Source: Anaerolineae bacterium (lineage in GTDB: Bacteria; Chloroflexota; Anaerolineae; 4572-78; J111). From it: a stretch of DNA of 64,000 nucleotides. The notes beneath the pieces were generated by a model. The model worked only from the letters and a program-made list of their open reading frames with translations. It was not told where the DNA came from and did no database searches. This document shows positions 48,239 to 60,201 of the stretch, in pieces. Within the stretch, counting starts at the first letter, position 1. The number at the start of each line of letters is the position of its first letter. The stretch covers positions 1-64,000 of the forward strand of contig JAJVIM010000005.1 of the NCBI GenBank assembly GCA_022071955.1, read 5' to 3'. The translations under genes and the position numbers were made by a program.

Positions 48239-49201
48239 CTAACTTACCTGATTTAATGCCAAAATTTTTTGCGCGGCCCGTTCGTCGGTGATCATTACAT
48301 TGACGTAACGCCCCCGCATCGCGCCGAGTATCGCCGCCCCTTTGCGCGAACCACCTGCCACCCCAATTACCGTATCGATGTTTAGCAGGGTTTCCCGGCT
48401 TATGCCCACCGCCCGGTGATTGATGTCAATATCAAGCCATTCGCCGGTTAAAGAATAGTGGTGGCCGCAAATATCACCCACAACGCCGGCAGCGCGAATC
48501 TGCTGTGTTTCCGCCTCGTCAACATAGCCGGCCCGTTTCAGGCTGTACAGCTCTGAGTTTGAGCTGCCAATCCCCACCAGCGCCACATCAACCTGCGCCG
48601 CGCGAGCCAGTGTTTCCTGAATGTTGCGCGTTTGCAGCAGGGTTTCTCGCACGGTTTCGTTTTCCACAATCAACGGCGCATGCAAATAGCGGGGAAATCC
48701 GCCCAACCGGTCGGCCAAAAGCTGAGCCAGGATTGGGCCATCTGTTGGCACAATTTCTGAGCCGGTGGCCCCAATGAGCTGGACAACCTCAATACCGGGC
48801 AAATTGCACGGCTGCATGGCCCGGATCATCTGGTACAGCGCTGTTCCCCACGAAATACCGATTATCATTCCATCGTAAAGAAGGTTAACAAAAAATTGGG
48901 CGGCCAAAGTGCCAAGCCCCTGCAGCATTTCCTCATATGATTTGTTTTCGGTCATCAACACGCGCGCCGCTTTAAGGTTAAATGTAGAAACCAGCTCCTG
49001 TTCCAGGTCTGGTAAATTGCGCCAGGGATAATGGACAATTATTTCGACAATGCCTTTTTCGCGGGCTTCGGTAAGAAAACGGGAGATGGCCGACCGTGAA
49101 ACCCCCAATTCTTTGGATATTTCTTCCTGGCTTTTATTTTGGTCGTAATATAACGAAGCGACTCTGGCCAGGAAAACCGTGCGTGTGTTTTCAAGTTTCA
49201 T
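48239..49201 (-). CDS. SorC/DeoR-type sugar-binding transcriptional regulator
   Basis: Regulator of 320 residues. The N-terminal helix-turn-helix (ARVASLYYDQNKSQEEISKELGVSRSAISRFLTEAREKGIV) is joined to a SorC-type phosphosugar-binding domain (about 58-318, with GISWGTALYQMI and GVAGGSRKGAAI). ATG 49201 is chosen for AAGGAG 7 nt upstream. It is divergent from the UlaD-like gene, and the gap holds several TGACATTTGTCA-like dyads. It probably senses a sugar phosphate of the downstream pathway. Confidence 0.93.
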   Translation of the reverse strand: MKLENTRTVFLARVASLYYDQNKSQEEISKELGVSRSAISRFLTEAREKGIVEIIVHYPWRNLPDLEQELVSTFNLKAARVLMTENKSYEEMLQGLGTLAAQFFVNLLYDGMIIGISWGTALYQMIRAMQPCNLPGIEVVQLIGATGSEIVPTDGPILAQLLADRLGGFPRYLHAPLIVENETVRETLLQTRNIQETLARAAQVDVALVGIGSSNSELYSLKRAGYVDEAETQQIRAAGVVGDICGHHYSLTGEWLDIDINHRAVGISRETLLNIDTVIGVAGGSRKGAAILGAMRGRYVNVMITDERAAQKILALNQVS

Positions 49202-49484
49202 CAAATTTCTCCTTGATCATGTCCGATTCGACGCAAAACATTGAATACGGAGGCTGCCCGCTATCAAATGGCAACGTTATCCAATTGTGATCCACAACTA
49301 ATGGGTGCGGAGTTTATTATATTTGCCGTTGCTCGTCAACCTGGATAATGTGAAGTTTTTGTCCGGCAAATGGTCATACGTGAAATGTTGTCACATTTGT
49401 TAGTGAATGTGTTCACAGTATAGCGCGTTTTGTAAAATATTTCAACCCCCAATTTCCACGTGGTGCCCGTTTTACTCAACAATA

Positions 49485-49587
49485 TGACATTTGTCGTGAA
49501 TTTTAGTGACATTTGTCACTTTACTTGCTGCCCGCTGTGCTTGTATTATCTGAGATAGTTATGGTACAAATGTGAATATAATTCACA
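49485..49587. promoter_or_regulatory. SorC operator cluster and promoter for the UlaD-like gene
   Basis: TGACATTTGTC (49485-49495), the dyad AGTGACATTTGTCACT (49505-49520) and the dyad TGTGAATATAATTCACA (49571-49587) lie in the SorC/UlaD intergenic region; TCACATTTGT recurs near 49391. A possible promoter is TTTACT (49520-49525) and TATTAT (49544-49549) with an 18-bp spacer, with operators on both sides. The other parts of the 466-bp gap show nothing recognisable. Confidence 0.6.
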
Positions 49588-49667
49588 AATGTGATAAATG
49601 TCTATAAGTGTCTGATCAAATTATCATTGTCTTTGAAAAACTTATCGCTTGAGAAAGGTTGATCAAC

Positions 49668-50420
49668 ATGGTTCAAAGTGCGTCAAAAAACTCAACTCCT
49701 TCAATCCCGTTATTTCAATTTGCCCTCGACTATTTTTCTCTGCCCTCGGCCATTGCAATGGCGGTAAAGGTAGCGCCTTTTGTGGACGTGATTGAGATTG
49801 GCACCCCTTTGTGCAAGGCCGCCGGAATGGCCGCGGTGCGCGCCATCCGGGAAGTCTGCCCCGACAAACTGATTGTGGCCGATCTTAAAACCCCCGATGT
49901 GGGCGACCTTGAAGCCAAAATGGCGTTTGATGCCGGGGCCGATATGATGACGGTCATCGGTGGGGCGGCTCTGGCTACCGTTGAGTTGGCCGTGAAAATG
50001 GCCCGGCAGGAAGGCAAAGAGATGCTGATGGAATTGACCGGCGTCCGCGATATTCTGGCCCGGGCCGAGGAGTGGAAGCAGGTTGGCGTGGAGCGCATGG
50101 TTTACCACCGCGGCTGGGACGAGCAAACTTTTGACCGCCAGTGGCAGGAAGAGGACAAGGTGATTATCCGCAAACTCATCGATATGGGTTTCAAAATTAC
50201 CGTGACCGGCGGCATCACCACCGAACTGCTCCCCTTCTTTCAAGACCTGCCGGTTTCCATCATCATTGCTGGCCGGGCTATTCATCAGGCTGCTGACCCC
50301 GCCGCCGCGGCCGGCGAATTTCGGGCCGCCATTCATCGCCTGTGGGGGGCCGCTCAGCCGGCTTTGTCGGGGAATAACGGCGCCGCCCAGCAAAACGAAT
50401 CAAAGGAGATTTTGTTGTGA
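49668..50420 (+). CDS. 3-keto-L-gulonate-6-phosphate decarboxylase-like (UlaD/SgbH family)
   Basis: Orotidine-decarboxylase-superfamily enzyme of 250 residues. It shows E43, the DxKxxD motif D72-L-K74-T-P-D77, E122 in MELTG, and VYHRGWDEQ at 146-154 aligning with the YHRSRD loop of E. coli UlaD. The C-terminus (FKITVTGG, IIIAGRAIHQAADPAAAA) is very UlaD-like. The predicted reaction is 3-keto-L-gulonate 6-phosphate to L-xylulose 5-phosphate plus CO2. The Arg that in UlaD distinguishes it from hexulose-6-phosphate synthase appears to be Trp150, so specificity deserves caution. ATG 49668 follows AAAGG. UlaE- and UlaF-like genes lie downstream, supporting the assignment. Confidence 0.85.
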   Translation: MVQSASKNSTPSIPLFQFALDYFSLPSAIAMAVKVAPFVDVIEIGTPLCKAAGMAAVRAIREVCPDKLIVADLKTPDVGDLEAKMAFDAGADMMTVIGGAALATVELAVKMARQEGKEMLMELTGVRDILARAEEWKQVGVERMVYHRGWDEQTFDRQWQEEDKVIIRKLIDMGFKITVTGGITTELLPFFQDLPVSIIIAGRAIHQAADPAAAAGEFRAAIHRLWGAAQPALSGNNGAAQQNESKEILL

Positions 50421-51292
50421 GCCAGGTAGAACACGTTTTAACCGTACAGGATGAACTGGGGGAATGCCCCATTTGGGACCCGGCCGAGCAGGCCCTGTAT
50501 TGGGTTGACATCGAGGGTAACCGGGTGCACCGCTATGAGCCGGCGTCAGGCTGCCACGAAATCCGCCAGCCCGGTTTTCCGATGACCGCGTTTGGCCTGC
50601 GAGACACCGGCGGCTGGATAACCGCCGCCAAAAACGGCCTGGCCTTTTGGAACTGGCACACCGGCTGTTATGAATTTGTTGCCGACCCGGTGGCCGATGT
50701 CCCCAACATTCGCTTCAACGATGGCGTGGTAGACCGACAGGGGCGCTTTTGGGCCGGCACCCTCAACGAGGCCGACCTCAACGCGCCCGACAGCGCGCTC
50801 TTTCGCCTGGACCCGGACGGTTCAACCCACCAGCTTGACGCTGGCTTTGCCACCTCCAACGGGTTGTGCCTCAGCCCTAACAGCAAAACCCTTTACTTTG
50901 TTGATATGTTCCACAGCCAAATCCTGGCCTACGATCACGACCCGGCGACCGGGGCGCTGGAAAATCGGCGCGTATTTGCCGCTGTGCCGGAAGAGGCCGG
51001 CCTGCCCGATGGCCTGACCATCGACAGTGAAGGCTTTGTGTGGAACGCCCGCTGGGGCGGCTGGCGGGTTACCCGCTACGATCCAACCGGCAAGGTTGAA
51101 CGGGAAATCCGCCTGCCGGTGCAAAACGTTACCCGCTGCGCCTTTGGCGGCGAGCAGTTGGACGTGCTCTTTATCAACTCTGCCTGGTACGGCCTCAGCG
51201 CCGCGGAACGTAAAGCCCAACCCCTGGCCGGCGACCTGTTCTGTATTCAGGTTGACGTTAAAGGGCTGGCCGAGCCGAAATTTATGGGTTAA
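50417..51292 (+). CDS. SMP-30/gluconolactonase-family lactonase
   Basis: Six-bladed propeller protein of 291 residues. LGECPIWDPAEQALYWVDIEG, RFNDGVVDRQGRFWAGT, TSNGLCLSPNSKTLYFVD and LPDGLTIDSEGFVW carry the E, N and D metal ligands of SMP-30/regucalcin lactonases. These open aldono-lactones to aldonic acids using a divalent metal. GTG 50417 overlaps the UlaD-like stop by 4 bp, a strong sign of co-translation. With the aldo/keto reductase and SDR downstream it suggests oxidation of a free L-hexose through a lactone. Confidence 0.9.
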   Translation: MSQVEHVLTVQDELGECPIWDPAEQALYWVDIEGNRVHRYEPASGCHEIRQPGFPMTAFGLRDTGGWITAAKNGLAFWNWHTGCYEFVADPVADVPNIRFNDGVVDRQGRFWAGTLNEADLNAPDSALFRLDPDGSTHQLDAGFATSNGLCLSPNSKTLYFVDMFHSQILAYDHDPATGALENRRVFAAVPEEAGLPDGLTIDSEGFVWNARWGGWRVTRYDPTGKVEREIRLPVQNVTRCAFGGEQLDVLFINSAWYGLSAAERKAQPLAGDLFCIQVDVKGLAEPKFMG

Positions 51293-51329
51293 ATCCCACC
51301 TGAAAAAAGCGCCGCAGGCCGGGGGGCTT

Positions 51330-51351
51330 GGGGGGTGTCCCCCCTCTTTTT
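51330..51351 (+). terminator. Intrinsic terminator after the lactonase gene
   Basis: GGGGGG (51330-51335), TGT loop, CCCCCC (51339-51344), then TCTTTTT. It lies about 38 bp past the lactonase stop. Transcription of the importer genes may depend on readthrough or on a promoter in 51352-51567, where I see G/C-rich potential structure but no clear promoter or known riboswitch. Confidence 0.65.
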
Positions 51352-51567
51352 CATCTCCCGTTACTGTGGCACTGCATCGGTAACACTCACTTGAATTGGG
51401 ATTCACTGTTGTTTGGCACAGGAGGAAAGGGGGTAAGCATCGATAGGACCAGAGACCACCACCAGGGTAGCTCCACCATCCGGTAAACCCCCCGGAAGGC
51501 GGCAGCCCGCTAGCAGGTTGAGCAGTTTTAGATATTTTGGATAAATAGTTACAAAGGAGAAACTAAG

Positions 51568-53661
51568 ATGAAGAAGAATCTATTGGCTCTGTTGACCGTA
51601 CTGGCGCTCACCGCGCTCTTTTTGCTGGCCTGCGGCACGGCTGCGCCCCCCGCAGCCGCCCCCGCCGACGCCCCAGCCGCCCAGGCTCCGGCGGCCGAAG
51701 CCCCGGCAGCGGAAGCGCCCCAGGCCGCGCCGGAAAAACCGTTGAAGATCGCCTTCTTTGTGTCAGACCTGAGCAACGTTTTCCACCAGGGGCAGTTTGC
51801 TGAAGCCAAACGGTACGCCAAAGAAAAGTACGGCGCGGAAGTATACGCCTTTGACGGCAAATCCGACTCGGCGGTGATGACGCAGAATGTTGACCAGGTG
51901 GTGGCCCAGGGGATGGACGCGGCCACGCTGCACATTTGGGACGCGGAAGCGGCCAAACCGGGCGTGCTCGACGCGCTGGACAAGGGCATTGTGATGACCT
52001 CGTTCTTTAGCCCGCTGGCCGACACCGGCATTCCGGTAGCCCGCAGCGATGAGGCCGGTATTTCCTTTGCGATGGGCGCGGAGATGGCCGAGCAGTGGAA
52101 AGCGGCCCACCCCGACAAACCGATTGTGATGGCCCAGCTTGGCTGGCCCAACCACACCGAAGTCAAATCTGGTCGGACCGACCCGTTTGTGAAAGGTGTG
52201 TTATCGGTTGATCCGGCAGCCACCGATCTGGGTTGTCTGGACGCCAGCAAAGGGCCGGACACCGCCAAGCAGATCATCCTTGACCTGGTCACCCAACACC
52301 CGGAAGTCAACCTGATCTACTCCGAAGCCTCCAACCTGACGGTGGGCACGATGGCCGCGTTGAACCAGGCCGGGCGGGGCAAGATGGACAACGGCAAACC
52401 GCTGACCGAGATTGTGGCCAGCGTTGACTTTGACGAAGTTGAGATGAAGAGCGTGTACGACCCGAACAGCTCGCTGAAGTTGTCGATGGGGCTACCGCCG
52501 ATTGAGACCGGGCGCGGGCGCATCGACCTGATTATGGATGTGGTCAATGGCAAAGAACCGATGACCGCCCAACCCGCCAACGAACACTTCTACAAAGCCT
52601 ACAACATCTCCTATTGGTCTATGCCGCAGGCCGAGGCCGTGAACTGGCTCAATACCCAGTTTGGCACCAACATTGCCGCCCCGGCAGCGGAAGCGCCCCA
52701 GGCCGCGCCGGAAAAACCGTTGAAGATCGCCTTCTTTGTGTCAGACCTGAGCAACGTGTTCCACCAGGCGCAGTTTGCCGAGGCGCAAAAGTACGCCAAA
52801 GAAAAGTACGGCGCGGAAGTATACGCCTTTGACGGCAAATCCGACTCGGCGGTGATGACGCAGAATGTTGACCAGGTGGTGGCCCAGGGGATGGACGCGG
52901 CCACGCTGCACATCTGGGACGCGGAAGCGGCCAAACCGGGCGTGCTCGACGCGCTGGACAAAGGCATTGTGATGACCTCGTTCTTTAGCCCGCTGGCCGA
53001 CACCGGCATTCCGGTAGCCCGCAGCGATGAGGCCGGTATTTCCTTTGCGATGGGCGCGGAGATGGCCGAGCAGTGGAAAGCGGCCCACCCCGACAAACCG
53101 ATTGTGATGGCGCAAATCGGCTGGCCCAACCACACCGAAGTCAAATCCGGCCGGACAGACCCGTTTGTGAAAGGTGTGTTATCGGTTGATCCGGCAGCCA
53201 CCGATCTGGGTTGTCTGGACGCCAGCAAAGGGCCGGACACCGCCAAGCAGATCATCCTCGATCTGGTGACCCAACACCCGGAAGTCAACCTGATCTACTC
53301 CGAAGCCTCCAACCTGACGGTGGGCACGATGGCCGCGCTGAACCAGGCCGGGCGGGGCAAGATGGACAACGGCAAACCGCTGACCGAGATTGTGGCCAGC
53401 GTTGACTTTGACGAAGTTGAAATGAAGAGCGTGTACGACCCGAACAGTTCGCTGAAGCTGTCGATGGGGCTGCCGCCGATTGAAACCGGGCGCGGGCGCA
53501 TCGACTTGATTATGGACGTGGTTTCCGGCAAAGAACCGATGACCGCCCAACCCGCCAACGAACACTTCTACAAAGCCTACAACATCTCCTTCTGGACCAT
53601 GCCGGAGAAGGATGCCATCCAGTGGCTTAACGCCCAATTTGGCACCAACATCAGCGGATAA
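51568..53661 (+). CDS. Sugar ABC transporter lipoprotein with two tandem binding domains
   Basis: Lipoprotein of 697 residues. A signal ends in LLAC, and an Ala/Pro/Glu tether follows to about residue 52. Two RbsB-type (periplasmic-binding family 4) domains, about 53-370 and 380-697, are then joined by the linker APAAEAPQAAPEKP. The second starts exactly 326 codons after the first, and they differ at only about 13 positions, eight of them in the last 20 or so residues. Single-domain proteins are the rule in this family. Both domains should bind the same sugar. SD AAAGGAG precedes ATG 51568. The cognate ATPase and two permeases follow. Confidence 0.93.
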   Translation: MKKNLLALLTVLALTALFLLACGTAAPPAAAPADAPAAQAPAAEAPAAEAPQAAPEKPLKIAFFVSDLSNVFHQGQFAEAKRYAKEKYGAEVYAFDGKSDSAVMTQNVDQVVAQGMDAATLHIWDAEAAKPGVLDALDKGIVMTSFFSPLADTGIPVARSDEAGISFAMGAEMAEQWKAAHPDKPIVMAQLGWPNHTEVKSGRTDPFVKGVLSVDPAATDLGCLDASKGPDTAKQIILDLVTQHPEVNLIYSEASNLTVGTMAALNQAGRGKMDNGKPLTEIVASVDFDEVEMKSVYDPNSSLKLSMGLPPIETGRGRIDLIMDVVNGKEPMTAQPANEHFYKAYNISYWSMPQAEAVNWLNTQFGTNIAAPAAEAPQAAPEKPLKIAFFVSDLSNVFHQAQFAEAQKYAKEKYGAEVYAFDGKSDSAVMTQNVDQVVAQGMDAATLHIWDAEAAKPGVLDALDKGIVMTSFFSPLADTGIPVARSDEAGISFAMGAEMAEQWKAAHPDKPIVMAQIGWPNHTEVKSGRTDPFVKGVLSVDPAATDLGCLDASKGPDTAKQIILDLVTQHPEVNLIYSEASNLTVGTMAALNQAGRGKMDNGKPLTEIVASVDFDEVEMKSVYDPNSSLKLSMGLPPIETGRGRIDLIMDVVSGKEPMTAQPANEHFYKAYNISFWTMPEKDAIQWLNAQFGTNISG
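51701..53656 (+). repeat. Tandem in-frame 978-bp duplication within the binding-protein gene
   Basis: The unit 51701-52678 recurs at 52679-53656 with an offset of 978 bp (326 codons). The copies are nearly identical but differ at scattered silent and missense sites, with the densest divergence at the 3' end of each unit. The junctions lie in the Ala/Pro/Glu linker, where short GCGGAAGC-type repeats could have promoted unequal recombination. Confidence 0.9.
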
Positions 53662-53689
53662 CCCCAAACCGGAAACGTAGCACCCTCCA

Positions 53690-53715
53690 GGGAGGGGGAC
53701 AGGCGTCCCCCTCCC
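53690..53715 (+). other. Intra-operon stem-loop after the binding-protein gene
   Basis: GGGAGGGGGAC (53690-53700) pairs exactly with 53705-53715 around a 4-nt loop. No T-run follows. It is placed between binding-protein and ATPase genes, as at 19748 and 38299. Confidence 0.65.
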
Positions 53716-53738
53716 CACTTGGGCCAAGGAGCAATTGT

Positions 53739-55229
53739 ATGGAAACCACCGAGAATGTGCTAGAAATCAGAGAGCTGGTAAAAGATTTCCCCGGCGTGCG
53801 GGCGGTCAACAACGTTAGCTTTAACATCAAGCGGAATACCGTTCACTGTCTGGTTGGGGAAAACGGGGCCGGGAAATCCACGCTGATCAAAATCCTCACC
53901 GGGGCGTACACCCGCACCGGCGGCAAGGTTCTGCTGAACGGTGAAGAGTACAGCCCGCACAACCCCCGCGAAGCGCGGCAAAAGGGCATCAGCACCCTGT
54001 TTCAGGAACTCAACGTGGTCGATCAGCTCACCGTTGAGGAAAACCTGACGCTGGGGATGGAAGACACAACCTTTGGGTTTTTGAGAAAAACGGACAAAAT
54101 CAACAAAATGGTGCGCGTGATGAACAGCATCGAGCCGTCCATCCACCCGCGGCAGCAGGTTTCAACCCTGAGCGTGGCCAAAAAGCAAATTGTGGAAATT
54201 GCCAAAGCCGCCGCCGCCGAATCGGACATCATCATTATGGACGAGCCAACCGCCGCCATCTCCGAGCGCGAAATTGAGCGCCTGTTTGCCATCATCCAGC
54301 GCCTGCGCGAGCAAAACGTCACCGTGATTTACATTTCCCACCGGCTTGATGAAATTTTTGAGATTGGCGACTACGTCACCGTGATGCGCGATGGCAAGCA
54401 CATCGACACCAAACCCATCTCCGAAATCAAAGACCGGACCGAGCTGATCAAAATGATGATCGGCAAAACCGTTTTTGAGCAGTACACCCCCAAAGAAGCC
54501 GCCGACCGGGACGTGTTGCTCCAGGTGCGCAACCTGTCCAACCACAAATTAAAAGACATTTCCTTTGATGTCCACGCGGGTGAGATTGTGGGCTTTTACG
54601 GCCTGGTTGGGGCGGGCAAAACCGAAATTGCCCGCGCCATTTACGGCGCCGACCCTTACCAGGGTGACATCCTCTTTAAAGGCAAAAAGCTCCAGCCCGC
54701 GCCCGATAAAGCCATTGCCGCCGGCATCGCCCTGGTGCCGGAAGAAAGGCGCTCGCAGGGGCTGTTTACCATTCTGACCATTCGGGGCAACATCCCCGTG
54801 ATGAACATGAAAAAAATATCCCGTAACGGATTTATCAACACGGCGGCGGAACAGAGCGTAACCGCTGACTACATTGACAGGCTGAAAATTGCCACCAACA
54901 GCGCCGAAAAGGAAGCCTCAAAACTCTCCGGCGGCAACCAGCAAAAGGTGGTGTTATCAAAATGCCTGTTTGCAGACGCCGACCTGCTCATGCTCGATGA
55001 GCCGACGCGCGGCATCGACGTGGGCGCCAAAAGCGAAATCTACGACATCATCCGGCGGCTCTCAAAGGAAGGGAAATCGATTATGATTTTCTCCTCGGAG
55101 TTGCCGGAAATTATGAACATCTGCGACAGCATCTACCTGCTGTTTGACGGCAGCCTGAAGGCGGCTATGCCCAACGGCGACAACGTGGACAGCGAAAAGA
55201 TTATCCATATTGTAACGGGCGGAGAATAG
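53739..55229 (+). CDS. Sugar ABC transporter ATPase (RbsA type)
   Basis: Double-domain ATPase of 496 residues. The first domain has Walker A GENGAGKSTLIKILTG, Walker B IIIMDEPTAAIS and an H-loop (VIYISHRLDE). The second has the degenerate Walker A GLVGAGKTEIARAIYG, signature LSGGNQQKVVLSK and LLMLDEPTRGIDVG. This is the CUT2 layout used for ribose, xylose, galactose and related sugars. It energises the two permeases encoded immediately downstream. Confidence 0.95.
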   Translation: METTENVLEIRELVKDFPGVRAVNNVSFNIKRNTVHCLVGENGAGKSTLIKILTGAYTRTGGKVLLNGEEYSPHNPREARQKGISTLFQELNVVDQLTVEENLTLGMEDTTFGFLRKTDKINKMVRVMNSIEPSIHPRQQVSTLSVAKKQIVEIAKAAAAESDIIIMDEPTAAISEREIERLFAIIQRLREQNVTVIYISHRLDEIFEIGDYVTVMRDGKHIDTKPISEIKDRTELIKMMIGKTVFEQYTPKEAADRDVLLQVRNLSNHKLKDISFDVHAGEIVGFYGLVGAGKTEIARAIYGADPYQGDILFKGKKLQPAPDKAIAAGIALVPEERRSQGLFTILTIRGNIPVMNMKKISRNGFINTAAEQSVTADYIDRLKIATNSAEKEASKLSGGNQQKVVLSKCLFADADLLMLDEPTRGIDVGAKSEIYDIIRRLSKEGKSIMIFSSELPEIMNICDSIYLLFDGSLKAAMPNGDNVDSEKIIHIVTGGE

Positions 55230-55232
55230 GCA

Positions 55233-56264
55233 ATGGAACTCAAAATCAAGCAAGTCCTGCCCACGCCGTCAATTGGCGGCAAACTGAGCAACGAGTCGTT
55301 CATCACCCTGTTGATGGTTGGCGTGCTGCTCTTTCTGTTTGGCATTGCCGTGGTTTTTGTGCCCAACTTCTACCAGCCCCAGAACATGCTCAACCTGATC
55401 ACCAACAACTGGTACATCATCATCATTGGCATTGGCGTTACGTTTTTGCTGATTACCGGCAATTTTGACCTGTCGGTGGGCGGCGTTATCGCCCTTACCG
55501 GCGTGCTGTCCGTTTATTTTTGCCAGGGAGTCAATGTGTCGCAGAACGCGCTGGCCAACGGGCTGGGCTTGCCTTACGGCGTGGCCGTGGGGCTGGCCCT
55601 GCTCTGCGCGATGGGCATCGGCGCGCTCAACGCCTTCTTTGTCACCCGGCTCAAAGTGCCCTCGATCATTGTGACGCTGGGCACCATGATGCTGGCCCGC
55701 GGCATTGCCCAGGTCATTACCCAGGGCGCGCAGCGCAACACCAGCCTGCCCGACGTCTTTGGGGTGGTGGGGAATATGGCCATCCCCGGCACGTTTATCA
55801 AGGTTTCGGTGCTGATTATGCTGGTGCTGCTGGCCGCCGCCTTTATCTTTGAGCGCAAAACCGTGTCGGGCCGGCGCACCTACCTCATTGGGGCCAACGC
55901 CGCCGCGGCCCGGCTCTCCGGCGTTAACGTGAGCCGTCACCTGACCGCGCTGTTCATCCTCAGCTCCTTTCTGGCCGGCATCACCGGCATCCTGCTGGCC
56001 TCTGAGTTTAAGGCCGGGGTTTCAAGCCGGGCCATGGGCTACGAGTTTGACGCGCTGGTGGTGGCGCTGCTGGGCGGGGTGAGCATTACCGGCGGCTTTG
56101 GCTCCGTGCTGGGCATGTTTGTCGGCGCGCTCATTCTCACCGTGGTCACATCGGCGGCCACCGGGCTGCTGCTCTCGCCGGATTGGCAGTTTACGCTGAA
56201 GGCCATCGCCGTGTTTGTGGCCATTCTGGCCCAAAGTTTTGCCCTGAACAGAAGAAAGGGTTAA
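55233..56264 (+). CDS. Sugar ABC transporter permease (RbsC type), subunit 1
   Basis: Membrane permease of 343 residues with 8-10 hydrophobic segments. Family features include ITGNFDLSVGGVIALTGV near TM2-3, LGTMMLARGIAQVITQG and LLGGVSITGGFGSVLGMFVGALIL. It starts 3 bp after the ATPase stop. Most CUT2 systems use one permease as a homodimer; here a second, different permease follows, implying a heterodimer. Confidence 0.93.
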   Translation: MELKIKQVLPTPSIGGKLSNESFITLLMVGVLLFLFGIAVVFVPNFYQPQNMLNLITNNWYIIIIGIGVTFLLITGNFDLSVGGVIALTGVLSVYFCQGVNVSQNALANGLGLPYGVAVGLALLCAMGIGALNAFFVTRLKVPSIIVTLGTMMLARGIAQVITQGAQRNTSLPDVFGVVGNMAIPGTFIKVSVLIMLVLLAAAFIFERKTVSGRRTYLIGANAAAARLSGVNVSRHLTALFILSSFLAGITGILLASEFKAGVSSRAMGYEFDALVVALLGGVSITGGFGSVLGMFVGALILTVVTSAATGLLLSPDWQFTLKAIAVFVAILAQSFALNRRKG

Positions 56265-56275
56265 GGAGGTGCGGC

Positions 56276-57349
56276 ATGTCAAAAGCGTTATTAACCAGGG
56301 ATTACATAACTATGAAAAGTGTGCAGCCAGAAGCGTCCCCCTTCCAGTTGGAGCGGTCGGCGGCGTTACGAGCAAATATCAAGCGGTTTTACATTTACGT
56401 GGTGCTGGCGCTGGTGGTGTTTGCCTTCAGCGTGGCCAAGCTGGACCAGGTTGACCTGTTTGAGCGGGGCCACTTTCTCAGCCCGGACAGCATTATTAAC
56501 CTGTTGCGCAGCGCCGTGCCCATCCTCACCGTGAGCGGCGCGTTTACCCTGCTGATGATCTCCGGCTACATCGACCTTTCTGTGGGCAGCGCCATGAGCC
56601 TGAGCGCCGTGGTTTTTGCCCTGATGATTTTGAACGGCGTCGGCTTTTTGCCGGCGCTGGTCATCACCCTGATGGTGGGGATTGGGCTGGGCGCGCTCAA
56701 CGGGCTGCTGGTGATGAAGCTGCGGATTACGCCGGTCATCGCCACGCTGGTTACGCTGAGCCTGTACAAAGGCACGGCCCTGCTGATTGTGCCCGATGGG
56801 CTGTCGGCCATTAAGGGCAGCACCGAGCGGCCCATGCCCGCCTGGATTAACAACTACGCCCGCGCCGACGTTCTGTTTGGCCTGCCGCTGGCGTTTTACG
56901 TGGCGGTGCTGGTTATCGTCGCGCTGGTCGTTGTTCAGCGCAAAACAATTTTGGGCAAATACGCCGCGGCGATTGGCGGCAACCCCACCGCGGCGGCGCT
57001 GTCCGGCATCAACGCGGTGCTGGTGGTCTGGCTGCTGTACATCATTGTTGGCTTTTTTGCCGCGCTGGCCGGCGTGGCCCGGGCCAGCTACATGTCGCTG
57101 GGCGACCCGCTCTCCGGCGACGGGATGGAACTGGCCTGCATCATCGCCGTGCTGCTGGGCGGCACCGCCTTCTCCGGCGGCGAAGGGTCGGTGGCCAAGA
57201 CCATTGTGGGGGCCATCATCATTATGTGCGTCACCATCGGTCTGATGACCGTGATTCCGGCCTACTGGCAAAATCTGGCCACCGGCACCGTGCTGCTCAC
57301 CGCCGTGGCCCTCAACCATCTGCTGGTGCGGGAAAAAGTAACCGGATAA
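56276..57349 (+). CDS. Sugar ABC transporter permease (RbsC type), subunit 2
   Basis: Permease of 357 residues. ATG 56276 is set by AAGGAGG 6 nt upstream; the frame open to 56183 lies inside the first permease gene. Motifs include LMISGYIDLSVGSAMSLSAV, ITPVIATLVTLSLYKGTALL and VLLGGTAFSGGEGSVAKTIVGAIII. Its hydrophilic N-terminus of about 40 residues is longer than in subunit 1. It presumably pairs with subunit 1 in the membrane. Confidence 0.93.
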   Translation: MSKALLTRDYITMKSVQPEASPFQLERSAALRANIKRFYIYVVLALVVFAFSVAKLDQVDLFERGHFLSPDSIINLLRSAVPILTVSGAFTLLMISGYIDLSVGSAMSLSAVVFALMILNGVGFLPALVITLMVGIGLGALNGLLVMKLRITPVIATLVTLSLYKGTALLIVPDGLSAIKGSTERPMPAWINNYARADVLFGLPLAFYVAVLVIVALVVVQRKTILGKYAAAIGGNPTAAALSGINAVLVVWLLYIIVGFFAALAGVARASYMSLGDPLSGDGMELACIIAVLLGGTAFSGGEGSVAKTIVGAIIIMCVTIGLMTVIPAYWQNLATGTVLLTAVALNHLLVREKVTG

Positions 57350-57378
57350 ATGAGCTGTTAAACGAAAGGAGCACCGGC

Positions 57379-58341
57379 GTGAACACACGGAAACTCGGCT
57401 TTGCCGACCTTCATTTGACCACCATTGGTTTTGGCACGTGGGCCATTGGCGGCGGCGGCTGGCAGTGGGCCTGGGGTCCCCAGGATGACCGGGACTCGAT
57501 TGCCGCCATCCGCCACGGCCTGGAATTGGGGATCAACTGGATTGACACCGCCGCGGCCTACGGCCAGGGCCACGCCGAAGAAGTGGTGGGCCAGGCTATC
57601 AAAGGCCGGCGCGATGAAGTGATCATCGCCACCAAGTGCGGCCTGGTGTGGGATGAAGGCAGCCCCAATGTTTACAATCGCCTCACCACCGCCAGCGTTC
57701 GCCGCGAGGCCGAAGCCAGCCTGCGCCGGCTCAACGTTGAAGCGATTGACCTGTACCAGATTCACTGGCCGGTGCCGGACGCGGACATTGAGCAGGCGTG
57801 GGAAGCCATCGCCGGGCTGGTGCAGGCCGGCAAGGTGCGCTACGCCGGGGTGTCCAATTTCAGCGTGGATCAAATTAAGCGCGCGCAGGCCATTCACCCG
57901 GTGGCCTCGGTGCAGCCGCCGTACAGCCTGCTCAATCGCGGCATTGAAGCCGAGTTGCTGCCCTACTGCCGCGCCAACGAGATTGGGGTCATCGCCTACA
58001 GCCCCATGCAATCCGGGCTGCTGACCGGCAAATACACCCGGGAACGCATTGCCGCCCTGCCGCAAGATGACTGGCGCAAGGCCAGCAACCCCGATTTTCA
58101 GGAGCCGGCGCTCAGCGCCAACCTGGCGCTCATAGAAAAATTGCGGCCCATCGCCGCCCGCAGCGGCAAAACAATGGCCCAGTTGGCGGTGGCCTGGGTG
58201 CTGCATCGCCCGGAAATAACCGCGGCCATCGTTGGCGCGCGCCGGCCAGGCCAGATTGAAGAAACCATTGAGGCGGCCAACTGGACCTTATCAACTGAAG
58301 CGTACACCGAGATCGACGCCGCGTTAGCATCGGTCCCGTAA
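57379..58341 (+). CDS. Aldo/keto reductase
   Basis: NAD(P)-dependent (beta/alpha)8 oxidoreductase of 320 residues. The catalytic tetrad is complete: D56, Y61, K86 and H129 (DTAAAYGQGHAEE, ATKCG, LYQIHWP). The cofactor region VGARRPGQIEE is near the C-terminus. The N-terminal GFGTWAIGGGGW resembles IolS- and L-galactose/L-fucose-dehydrogenase-like branches. GTG 57379 follows AAGGAG; upstream reading-frame extension overlaps the permease and is rejected. In context it may oxidise the imported sugar to its lactone for the SMP-30 enzyme; this is inferred. Confidence 0.92.
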   Translation: MNTRKLGFADLHLTTIGFGTWAIGGGGWQWAWGPQDDRDSIAAIRHGLELGINWIDTAAAYGQGHAEEVVGQAIKGRRDEVIIATKCGLVWDEGSPNVYNRLTTASVRREAEASLRRLNVEAIDLYQIHWPVPDADIEQAWEAIAGLVQAGKVRYAGVSNFSVDQIKRAQAIHPVASVQPPYSLLNRGIEAELLPYCRANEIGVIAYSPMQSGLLTGKYTRERIAALPQDDWRKASNPDFQEPALSANLALIEKLRPIAARSGKTMAQLAVAWVLHRPEITAAIVGARRPGQIEETIEAANWTLSTEAYTEIDAALASVP

Positions 58342-58389
58342 ATTAATAAATCAACCCATCAACACCGTTAAATTCAGGAGGATTAAATT

Positions 58390-59127
58390 ATGGCAAGCAT
58401 CGCCAATCAAGTAGCGTTAGTAACCGGCGGCACCAGCGGCTATGGCAAGGCCACGGCCAAATTACTGGTAGAGGAGGGCGTTAAAGTTATCATTGCCTCG
58501 TTTGATAGCGAAGATGTCCTGCAAAGCGTGCAGCAGGAAATTGGCTGCGACTCCTATTTCCACATGAACGTGATCAAGCCCGAGGATTGGGAAGCCGTTT
58601 ACGATTTTGTCCGCTCAAAATACGACCGGCTGGATATGCTGCTGAACATCGCCGGCGGCGGGGTGTCGGTGGTGGATACCGCGGACCAGCCGCTCGATAA
58701 AATAGACTATAACATCAAGTTAAATCTGTACAACGTGATCTACGGCTCCCGAATCTTTGCCCCCATGATGCGCAGCCAGAAGCGCGGCACCATCATCAAT
58801 TTTGCCTCGGTGTGCGCCAAGGCGGCCTGGCCGGGCTGGTCGGTTTACGCGGCGGCCAAGTGGGGCGTGCTGGGCTTTTCAAAGGGGCTGTACACGGAAC
58901 TCCAGCCGGACAACATCCGCGTAACCTGCGTTATTCCCGCCGCGGCCAGCACCGGCTTCCAAAAAGCCACCAGCGGCGTTAATCCGGCGGAATTTGCCGA
59001 GCTAAAATTGCGCCCCGAAGACGTGGCCCAGGTGGTGGTGGATACCTGCAAACTGCCGCCGCACGTGGTGGTTGAAGAGGTGACGGTCTGGGGCATCGAT
59101 CAGGTGGTTGTGCCGTTTTCGCGCTAG
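58390..59127 (+). CDS. Short-chain dehydrogenase/reductase
   Basis: Classical SDR of 245 residues. Cofactor motif TGGTSGYGKA at 12-21, NIAGG at 86-90, and the catalytic S140, Y153 and K157 (SVYAAAK). No acidic residue ends beta-2 in the usual place (IIASFDSED is near), so NAD versus NADP is uncertain. SD AGGAGG precedes the ATG. A plausible role is oxidation of an aldonate such as L-gulonate to its 3-keto form, feeding the UlaD-like enzyme after phosphorylation. This is inferred from position only. Confidence 0.92.
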   Translation: MASIANQVALVTGGTSGYGKATAKLLVEEGVKVIIASFDSEDVLQSVQQEIGCDSYFHMNVIKPEDWEAVYDFVRSKYDRLDMLLNIAGGGVSVVDTADQPLDKIDYNIKLNLYNVIYGSRIFAPMMRSQKRGTIINFASVCAKAAWPGWSVYAAAKWGVLGFSKGLYTELQPDNIRVTCVIPAAASTGFQKATSGVNPAEFAELKLRPEDVAQVVVDTCKLPPHVVVEEVTVWGIDQVVVPFSR

Positions 59128-59184
59128 ACTTTTCGCTCCCTCACCCCCCTGACCCCCGTCCGCGGGAGAGGGGGAATGAGGTTT

Positions 59185-59225
59185 GGCTGTGGTTTTGGGT
59201 CGCGCCGTGGCCCAAAACCACAGCC
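59185..59225 (+). other. Perfect 15-bp stem-loop
   Basis: GGCTGTGGTTTTGGG (59185-59199) pairs exactly with 59211-59225 around an 11-nt loop, in the gap between the SDR and UlaE-like genes. No T-run follows. A G/C-rich repeat (CCCTCACCCCCCTGACCCCC) lies just upstream at about 59140. Confidence 0.6.
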
Positions 59226-59307
59226 TTTCAACAGGAAACAAAAACGGGCTTTTGTCCCAAAAAACAACGCTTTTGGACTCCGGCCAGAGATTGTGTGCGG
59301 TCTGACT

Positions 59308-60201
59308 ATGAAACTCGAATTCAGAATACCCGTTGGTCTTTATGAAAAAGCCTTGCCCGCCGAGTGGTCGTGGGACGAGCGATTGAGCCAGGCGGCGCAG
59401 GCCGGCTACGATTTTATCGATATTTCCATTGACGAGAGCGAAACGCGGCTGGCCCGGCTGGACTGGCCGGCCCCGGCACGGGCCGCGCTGCGCCGGGCCA
59501 TCGCCAACAGCGGCGTGCCGGTGCTGACTATGTGCCTGAGCGCCCACCGCAAATATCCGCTGGGCAGCCACTGCCCGGAAATCCGGGCGCAGGGGCTGGA
59601 GATTTTTCAGAAAGCCATCCAGTTTGCCCGCGACATCGACATCCGCATTATTCAGGTGATGGGCTACGATGTTTATTACGAAGCCAGCGATGACGAAACA
59701 CAGGCCAATTTTGTGGAAAGCCTGCGCCGCTGCGTGCAATGGGCCGGCCAGGCGGGGGTGATGCTGGGGCTTGAAAATGTGGATAACCCGTACCTGGAAT
59801 CGGTTGAAAAGGGGTTGCGGCTGGTTCACCAGCTAAACTCGCCCTGGTTTCAGCTTTATCCCGATATGGCCAACCTGGCCGCCGCCGGGTATCACCCGCC
59901 CACCGAATTGCTGCTGGCCAAAGGGCATTTGGTCGGCGTTCATTTTAAGGATGGCCGGCCCGGTATCATCCGTGGCGTGCCATTTGAGCAGGGCATTGTG
60001 CCGTTTGTTGAAACGTTTGAGGCGCTGGCCCAAATCGGGTTTTGCGGCCCGCTGGGCGTAGAAATGTGGGCCGATATGGACACCACCGGCAACCCGTTAA
60101 ATTCCGCCATCGCTGCCCGCCGGCTGGTGGAACATCTGATAACAACGGTTTGGGGCGGGCAAACAGCGCCGGCTAATCAATTGATAACTTGCCCGGTGTA
60201 A
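59308..60201 (+). CDS. L-ribulose/L-xylulose-5-phosphate 3-epimerase-like (UlaE/SgbU family)
   Basis: TIM-barrel epimerase of 297 residues, strongly like E. coli UlaE. It has IPVGLYEKALPAEWSWDERLSQAAQAGYDFIDISIDESETRLARLDW, MCLSAHRKYPLGSH, GLEIFQKAIQFA, QVMGYDVYY, and metal-ligand segments LGLENVDNPY, QLYPDMANL, GVHFKDGRPG and GVEMWADMD. It interconverts L-xylulose 5-phosphate and L-ribulose 5-phosphate. ATG 59308 aligns with family starts, although no strong SD is visible. It links the UlaD- and UlaF-like steps. Confidence 0.92.
   Translation: MKLEFRIPVGLYEKALPAEWSWDERLSQAAQAGYDFIDISIDESETRLARLDWPAPARAALRRAIANSGVPVLTMCLSAHRKYPLGSHCPEIRAQGLEIFQKAIQFARDIDIRIIQVMGYDVYYEASDDETQANFVESLRRCVQWAGQAGVMLGLENVDNPYLESVEKGLRLVHQLNSPWFQLYPDMANLAAAGYHPPTELLLAKGHLVGVHFKDGRPGIIRGVPFEQGIVPFVETFEALAQIGFCGPLGVEMWADMDTTGNPLNSAIAARRLVEHLITTVWGGQTAPANQLITCPV

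Follow-up and report, generated by a model that had tools for sequence, protein, structure and literature searches.

Several binding domains per translocator are known from ABC importers of the OpuA type (PMC11065425). In these importers each polypeptide carries one substrate-binding domain fused to the permease, and the complex has two through dimerisation of the subunit. In GlnPQ of Lactococcus lactis, two substrate-binding domains stand in tandem and fold and bind independently (PMC8025302); they are fused to the transmembrane subunit and differ from one another in ligand specificity and affinity. The protein described here resembles GlnPQ in providing one ABC importer with two tandem binding domains joined by a short linker, and it shares with OpuA-type importers the presence of several binding domains per translocator. 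Unlike those of GlnPQ, its domains lie on a separate lipoprotein, are nearly identical to each other, belong to the RbsB-type fold and carry signs of homogenisation by gene conversion. Its relatives are the solute-binding proteins (SBPs) of CUT2-type importers (RbsB and others, Pfam family PF13407), and the relatives with solved structures are single-domain proteins, unlike the one considered here. The cell envelope of Chloroflexota is presumed to be without an outer membrane.

A lipoprotein with two near-identical binding domains

The window, by which we mean the whole 64,000-nucleotide stretch of DNA that was analysed, contains on its forward strand an open reading frame (51568-53661) for a protein of 697 residues, made up of a lipoprotein-type signal peptide, a linker and two in-frame units of 326 codons. 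The signal peptide comprises residues 1-22 (51568-51633) and ends in a lipobox, FLLAC at residues 18-22 with Cys22, which was identified by eye in the translation. An Ala/Pro/Glu-rich N-terminal linker follows (51634-51741; pLDDT below 50 at residues 20-55), and the portion of it from 51700 onward is already part of the repeated unit. Unit 1 spans 51700-52677 and unit 2 spans 52678-53655, a spacing of 978 nt, with a Peripla_BP_4 domain in each. The inter-domain linker (52678-52719) is a copy of the end of the N-terminal linker, identical to 51700-51741.

Over the 326 codons the two units share 95.7% amino acid and 94.7% nucleotide identity, and an in-frame match of 978 nt at 95% identity is far beyond chance. 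The codons that differ comprise 27 synonymous and 14 missense ones. Of the latter, nine are located in the last 22 residues of unit 1 (residues 349-370, encoded at 52612-52677; the counterpart in unit 2 is 53590-53655), and only 5 are found in the first 300 residues, several of them conservative (K/Q, R/K, L/I, G/A, N/S). A sequence-only reading of this DNA had counted about 13 residue changes, 8 of them near the unit end; the clustering that it described was confirmed, the exact counts were not, and silent as well as missense differences were present as it had stated.

PF13407 (Peripla_BP_4) matched the protein over two stretches, with 177.2 bits against a gathering score of 35.1, and in the AlphaFold model both units form a complete type-I SBP fold, with low confidence in the linkers (residues 20-55 and 373-381). 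The best structural neighbours were RbsB-type proteins, which were matched one domain at a time with TM-scores on the target of 0.8-0.9, and none of the PDB matches listed for the protein spans both units. PDB entries named MSD1 and MSD3, considered as domains of a multi-domain SBP, were rejected as they are designed allose-binding proteins. There is no permease domain within the 697-residue chain, the permeases being encoded by separate genes. The open reading frame, the two PF13407 matches and the model thus bear out the proposal, made from the letters alone, of one lipoprotein with two near-identical tandem RbsB-type domains that is free and not fused to a permease. As in CUT2 SBPs, both units span a complete PF13407 domain, and their predicted fold is like that of RbsB. 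Lipoproteins of this family normally have a single binding domain, and because the protein in the window has two domains per chain, not one, it is a variant of the family.

As in CUT2 operons, one RbsA/AraG-like ATPase gene and RbsC-like permease genes lie beside the SBP gene. The two-domain sugar ABC transporter ATPase of the CUT2 type is encoded at 53739-55229, permease A at 55233-56264 and permease B at 56276-57349, all on the forward strand; both permeases match BPD_transp_2, and orthologue lengths make the ATG at 56276 the likelier start of permease B. On the other side of the SBP gene, a UlaD-like decarboxylase gene of the OMPdecase family (49659-50420) and a gene of the same operon for an SMP-30/gluconolactonase-like (SGL) protein (50417-51292) are read in the same direction, and a SorC-type regulator with a Sugar-bind domain is divergent (48239-49204, reverse strand). 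A short-chain dehydrogenase gene (58390-59127), which is kept in the operon of the sister genus, and a gene for a UlaE-like L-ribulose-5-phosphate 3-epimerase (59176-60201) follow the permeases on the forward strand, and an aldo-keto reductase gene also flanks the importer. None of the specific NCBIfam sugar SBP models reached its cut-off on the SBP, so no model assigns a ligand; the enzymes encoded nearby point to a pathway for a sugar acid, a lactone or a pentose.

Tandem binding proteins in the source genome and its class

Counting the gene in the window, the source genome encodes at least 13 near-identical tandem SBPs, with 2-3 units each, from three SBP families. A whole-genome domain search returned nine loci at which PF13407 matches share one open frame, and in-frame repeats of 2-3 units were confirmed there, internal repeats being measured by k-mer lag and split alignment. 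Three near-identical tandems belong to SBP_bac_1 (C27, C31 and C54). A further near-identical tandem of 783 residues had no Pfam match over the cut-off and adjoins genes for an SsuC-like permease and an SsuB-like ATPase, as judged from translations read by eye. Alongside the near-identical ones, the same genome has a tandem whose two SBP_bac_1 domains are dissimilar, with 27% identity (L208 3946-6627, on G000 C2). The idea that tandem duplication affects all SBP families alike was rejected, since none of the 15 SBP_bac_5 matches in the source genome shared a frame with another.

We also scanned 1.44 Mb, mostly long runs of C1, C4, C6, C26 and C27 that were partly picked for such genes, together with some stretches from relatives. 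All near-identical duplications at the scale of a domain (lag of at least 900 bp, in open reading frames of less than 1,200 residues) were in SBPs. A genome-wide habit of duplication was rejected, as the other repeats in the 1.44 Mb were mostly short and inside large proteins, apart from one pair of neighbouring genes.

For a census of the class we used a profile made from ten tandem SBPs (A2) and scored as positive a match over at least about 590 of its 676 positions. Tandem SBPs were present in at least 49 of 396 genomes of the class, a lower bound with three candidates scored per genome. The check proposed in the sequence-only reading, a search of Chloroflexota for further two-domain SBPs, thus found many. 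At 27 of 30 measured class loci the units were clearly related, many with 80-98% nucleotide identity and a predominance of silent changes, and at the other three they were only 26-29% identical. With the same profile, no tandem SBP was among the matches listed in 133 genomes of the phylum outside the class, in 100 genomes of the phylum of a Spirochaete orthologue or in 150 genomes of the phylum of a Clostridiales orthologue; these outside phyla were selected for holding the orthologous operon, and the outside controls consisted of top matches only. Five genomes named Spirochaetes, Calditrichales or Clostridiales that contain the orthologous operon were scored in full, again with no tandem among the matches listed. 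The census identifies predicted multi-unit free SBPs as a recurrent architecture of this Chloroflexota class, with none seen in the outside groups sampled. We found no report of free tandem SBPs in the open-access literature searched; the tandem binding domains of ABC importers described there are fused to permeases.

Two further loci combine dissimilar units in other ways. A protein of 1,097 residues (L070 7158-10448, in G008) joins an SBP_bac_1 domain to a diverged pair of Peripla_BP_4 domains, and so holds two unrelated SBP families in one chain. In G010, a tandem SBP with dissimilar units (26% identical) lies between two complete ATPase/permease pairs (L067 4780-12349), an arrangement that looks as if one lipoprotein served two importers.

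Orthologues and gene conversion between units

Orthologues of the SBP in the sister genus of the same family, in G006 and G010, have one domain and are 87-89% identical; the matching public loci are those of isolates H5_CFX5 and H5_CFX7. Tandem orthologues in the same operon are present in two other Chloroflexi MAGs, NC_groundwater_1617 (NCgw1617; L136 9024-11114) and Ww301 (L138 5794-7842). In the core tree the two window units share a stem with 100/100 support. The core has a dN of 0.011 and a dS of 0.149 between the window units, and a dS of 0.8-0.9 between them and the sister-genus orthologue. Either the duplication would be later than the split of the genera, or an older one may have been erased by conversion.

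Two further observations concern the operon. Orthologues of the importer genes (within 48239-60201), with identities of about 70-80%, occur in MAGs labelled as Spirochaetes and Clostridiales, and in every case the SBP has one domain; this distribution points to horizontal transfer of an uncharacterised sugar pathway. In NC_groundwater_1617 a second SBP gene of the operon adjoins the tandem one (L136 6893-8854) and encodes one binding domain joined in the same chain to an SGL domain, the SGL match (E=2.4e-5) being slightly under the Pfam cut-off.

Divergence between the window units was uneven, at 5.6% of nucleotides in the N end, 2.8% in the middle and 17.4% in the C end, and identity was 96.1% in the core versus 84.5% in the C-terminal 44 codons. 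The C-terminus had 20 changes where 9.7 were expected from orthologue divergence (P=7e-4, a generous value as the boundary was set post hoc). The excess was stronger in NCgw1617, with 28 changes versus 10.4 expected (P=3e-7), and weak in Ww301 (P=5e-3). The C-terminal end of unit 2 of NCgw1617 was 86.0% identical to unit 2 of Ww301 versus 78.3% to unit 1 of its own gene; in the core the relation was reversed, with 78.5% to Ww301 unit 2 and 94.3% to its own unit 1. AU tests rejected the grouping of unit 2 sequences for the core (p=2e-5) and, for the C-terminus, a grouping of the two NCgw1617 units with each other (p=0.02). For the window gene, the core tree and the C-terminal tree both join its own two units.

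A set of tandem SBPs from 11 species of another genus gave the clearest phylogenetic conflict. The unit ends split into unit 1 and unit 2 with 100/100 support. In the middle, both units of three species cluster among themselves, one pair is identical over 600 nt, and a single clade of unit 1 was rejected (AU p=1.2e-4). This conflict formally shows, for the 11-species set, that gene conversion within one gene homogenises the unit middles as the ends diverge. Between species, dN/dS was 0.05-0.06 for each unit, including the ends that escape conversion, which indicates that both units are under strong purifying selection. Such a pattern is expected if tandem copies recombine through tracts that rarely extend to the edges of the units, and in 11 of the 12 tandem SBPs measured in the source genome one end or both had clearly diverged further than the middle. 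Internal gene conversion is supported in the two tandem orthologues, NCgw1617 and Ww301, and only suggested in the window gene itself. The cluster of C-terminal changes in the window gene is probably explained by conversion that spares the unit edges. For this gene alone, relaxed C-terminal constraint could also be the source, a reading with which the joining of its own two units in the C-terminal tree agrees.

Possible role of several heads per anchor

We consider the best explanation, and a reasonably probable one, to be that the SBP lipoprotein of a CUT2-type importer underwent an in-frame duplication of its whole domain and now presents two flexibly linked heads of the same specificity on one anchor. 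The binding domain would have been duplicated whole through the Ala/Pro/Glu-rich linker. Such duplications may originate by recombination at repetitive linkers, with internal gene conversion then keeping the unit middles alike. By analogy with GlnPQ, each head would bind independently of the other, the ligand being the same for both, and the heads would dock singly on an ordinary permease. With several identical heads on its anchor, one lipoprotein would show more loaded receptors to the translocator, and such heads may have been retained on that account; raised local ligand capture by two heads would be plausible. The wider proposal, that the class has generalised multi-headed SBP lipoproteins of unrelated families, with 2-3 conversion-matched heads and hence more loaded receptors per anchor, is one we advance tentatively, giving it slightly less than an even chance.

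It is very unlikely that the tandem arose in assembly, from strain variants or an unresolved overlap placed end to end. The source assembly does contain 10-N gaps, one of them within the third unit of another tandem SBP, and some other tandem pairs in the genome have exact tracts of 545-956 nt, but the window pair has 41 codon differences spread over the whole repeat, a longest identical tract of 149 nt and a junction that preserves the reading frame and falls on a domain boundary. The tandem orthologues in two other MAGs also argue against an artefact, as does a similar tandem SBP in G240, a genome consisting of one 4.67-Mb contig. Other tandem pairs have diverged to ~80% nucleotide identity, mainly by silent changes, and an artefact would not be expected to pick out SBPs. 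The sequence-only reading had likewise taken the silent and missense differences to speak against a simple assembly duplicate. The gapped tandem (L056 6019-6028, on G000 C1) has the same short sequence on both sides of the gap, which resembles an unmerged contig overlap, and its unit number is for that reason uncertain; unit number is also uncertain where exact tracts exceed 500 nt. It is just as hard to credit that the heads are matched to the two different permeases encoded downstream. The sequence-only reading had tied the tandem domains to this asymmetric pair and had called such a pair unusual, and neither claim held. LsrC and LsrD have separate NCBIfam models, both of which match in the window operon, and the importer gene order including both permeases is conserved at orthologous loci with a one-domain SBP. 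Other tandem PF13407 loci in the source genome have one ATPase and one permease per tandem SBP, and its other tandem or triple SBPs mostly have one permease. Head number therefore does not appear to follow permease number, and pairing with two permeases was refuted as a general cause.

A GlnPQ-like functional split, in which the heads differ in ligand, affinity or docking role, would fit the C-terminal helices, which differ between the units, and the dissimilar units of some class tandem SBPs. We judge it improbable for the window gene, in which so few missense changes occur in the first 300 residues and homogenisation of the middle would oppose divergence of the binding site; given the near-identity of the heads, different ligand specificities are unlikely. 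A neutral ratchet deserves more weight, although we regard it as rather unlikely too. Long repetitive linkers and free-standing extracellular domains would make duplications easy and tolerated, and these would be homogenised, gained and lost without benefit. The repeated unit includes linker sequence, copy number varies among close relatives (one domain in G006 and G010, two in the window gene), and SBPs tolerate fusion, as in the SBP-SGL protein of L136; over short times, easy duplication at repetitive linkers that brought no benefit would look similar. Against this stand the two units retained in 11 species, each constrained up to its conversion-escaping ends, and the fact that no tandem SBP was seen in the sampled outside groups, whose linkers may differ in length. 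Because both units have long been retained in the 11 species and none was seen in those outside groups, a benefit of the duplicated heads is favoured, short of proof. Two heads are evidently not essential, since orthologues with one domain appear to work, both in the sister genus and in other phyla.

Three orthologous loci from two other MAGs (L144, L145 and L146) all end within the SBP gene, a result that breakage of short-read assemblies at tandem units would produce. For annotators, fragmented assemblies may therefore break or collapse tandem SBP genes, and the architecture may be under-counted. Free tandem SBPs of at least three families, kept near-identical by intragenic gene conversion, would offer a naturally occurring test of how the rate of import depends on receptor number and tethering.
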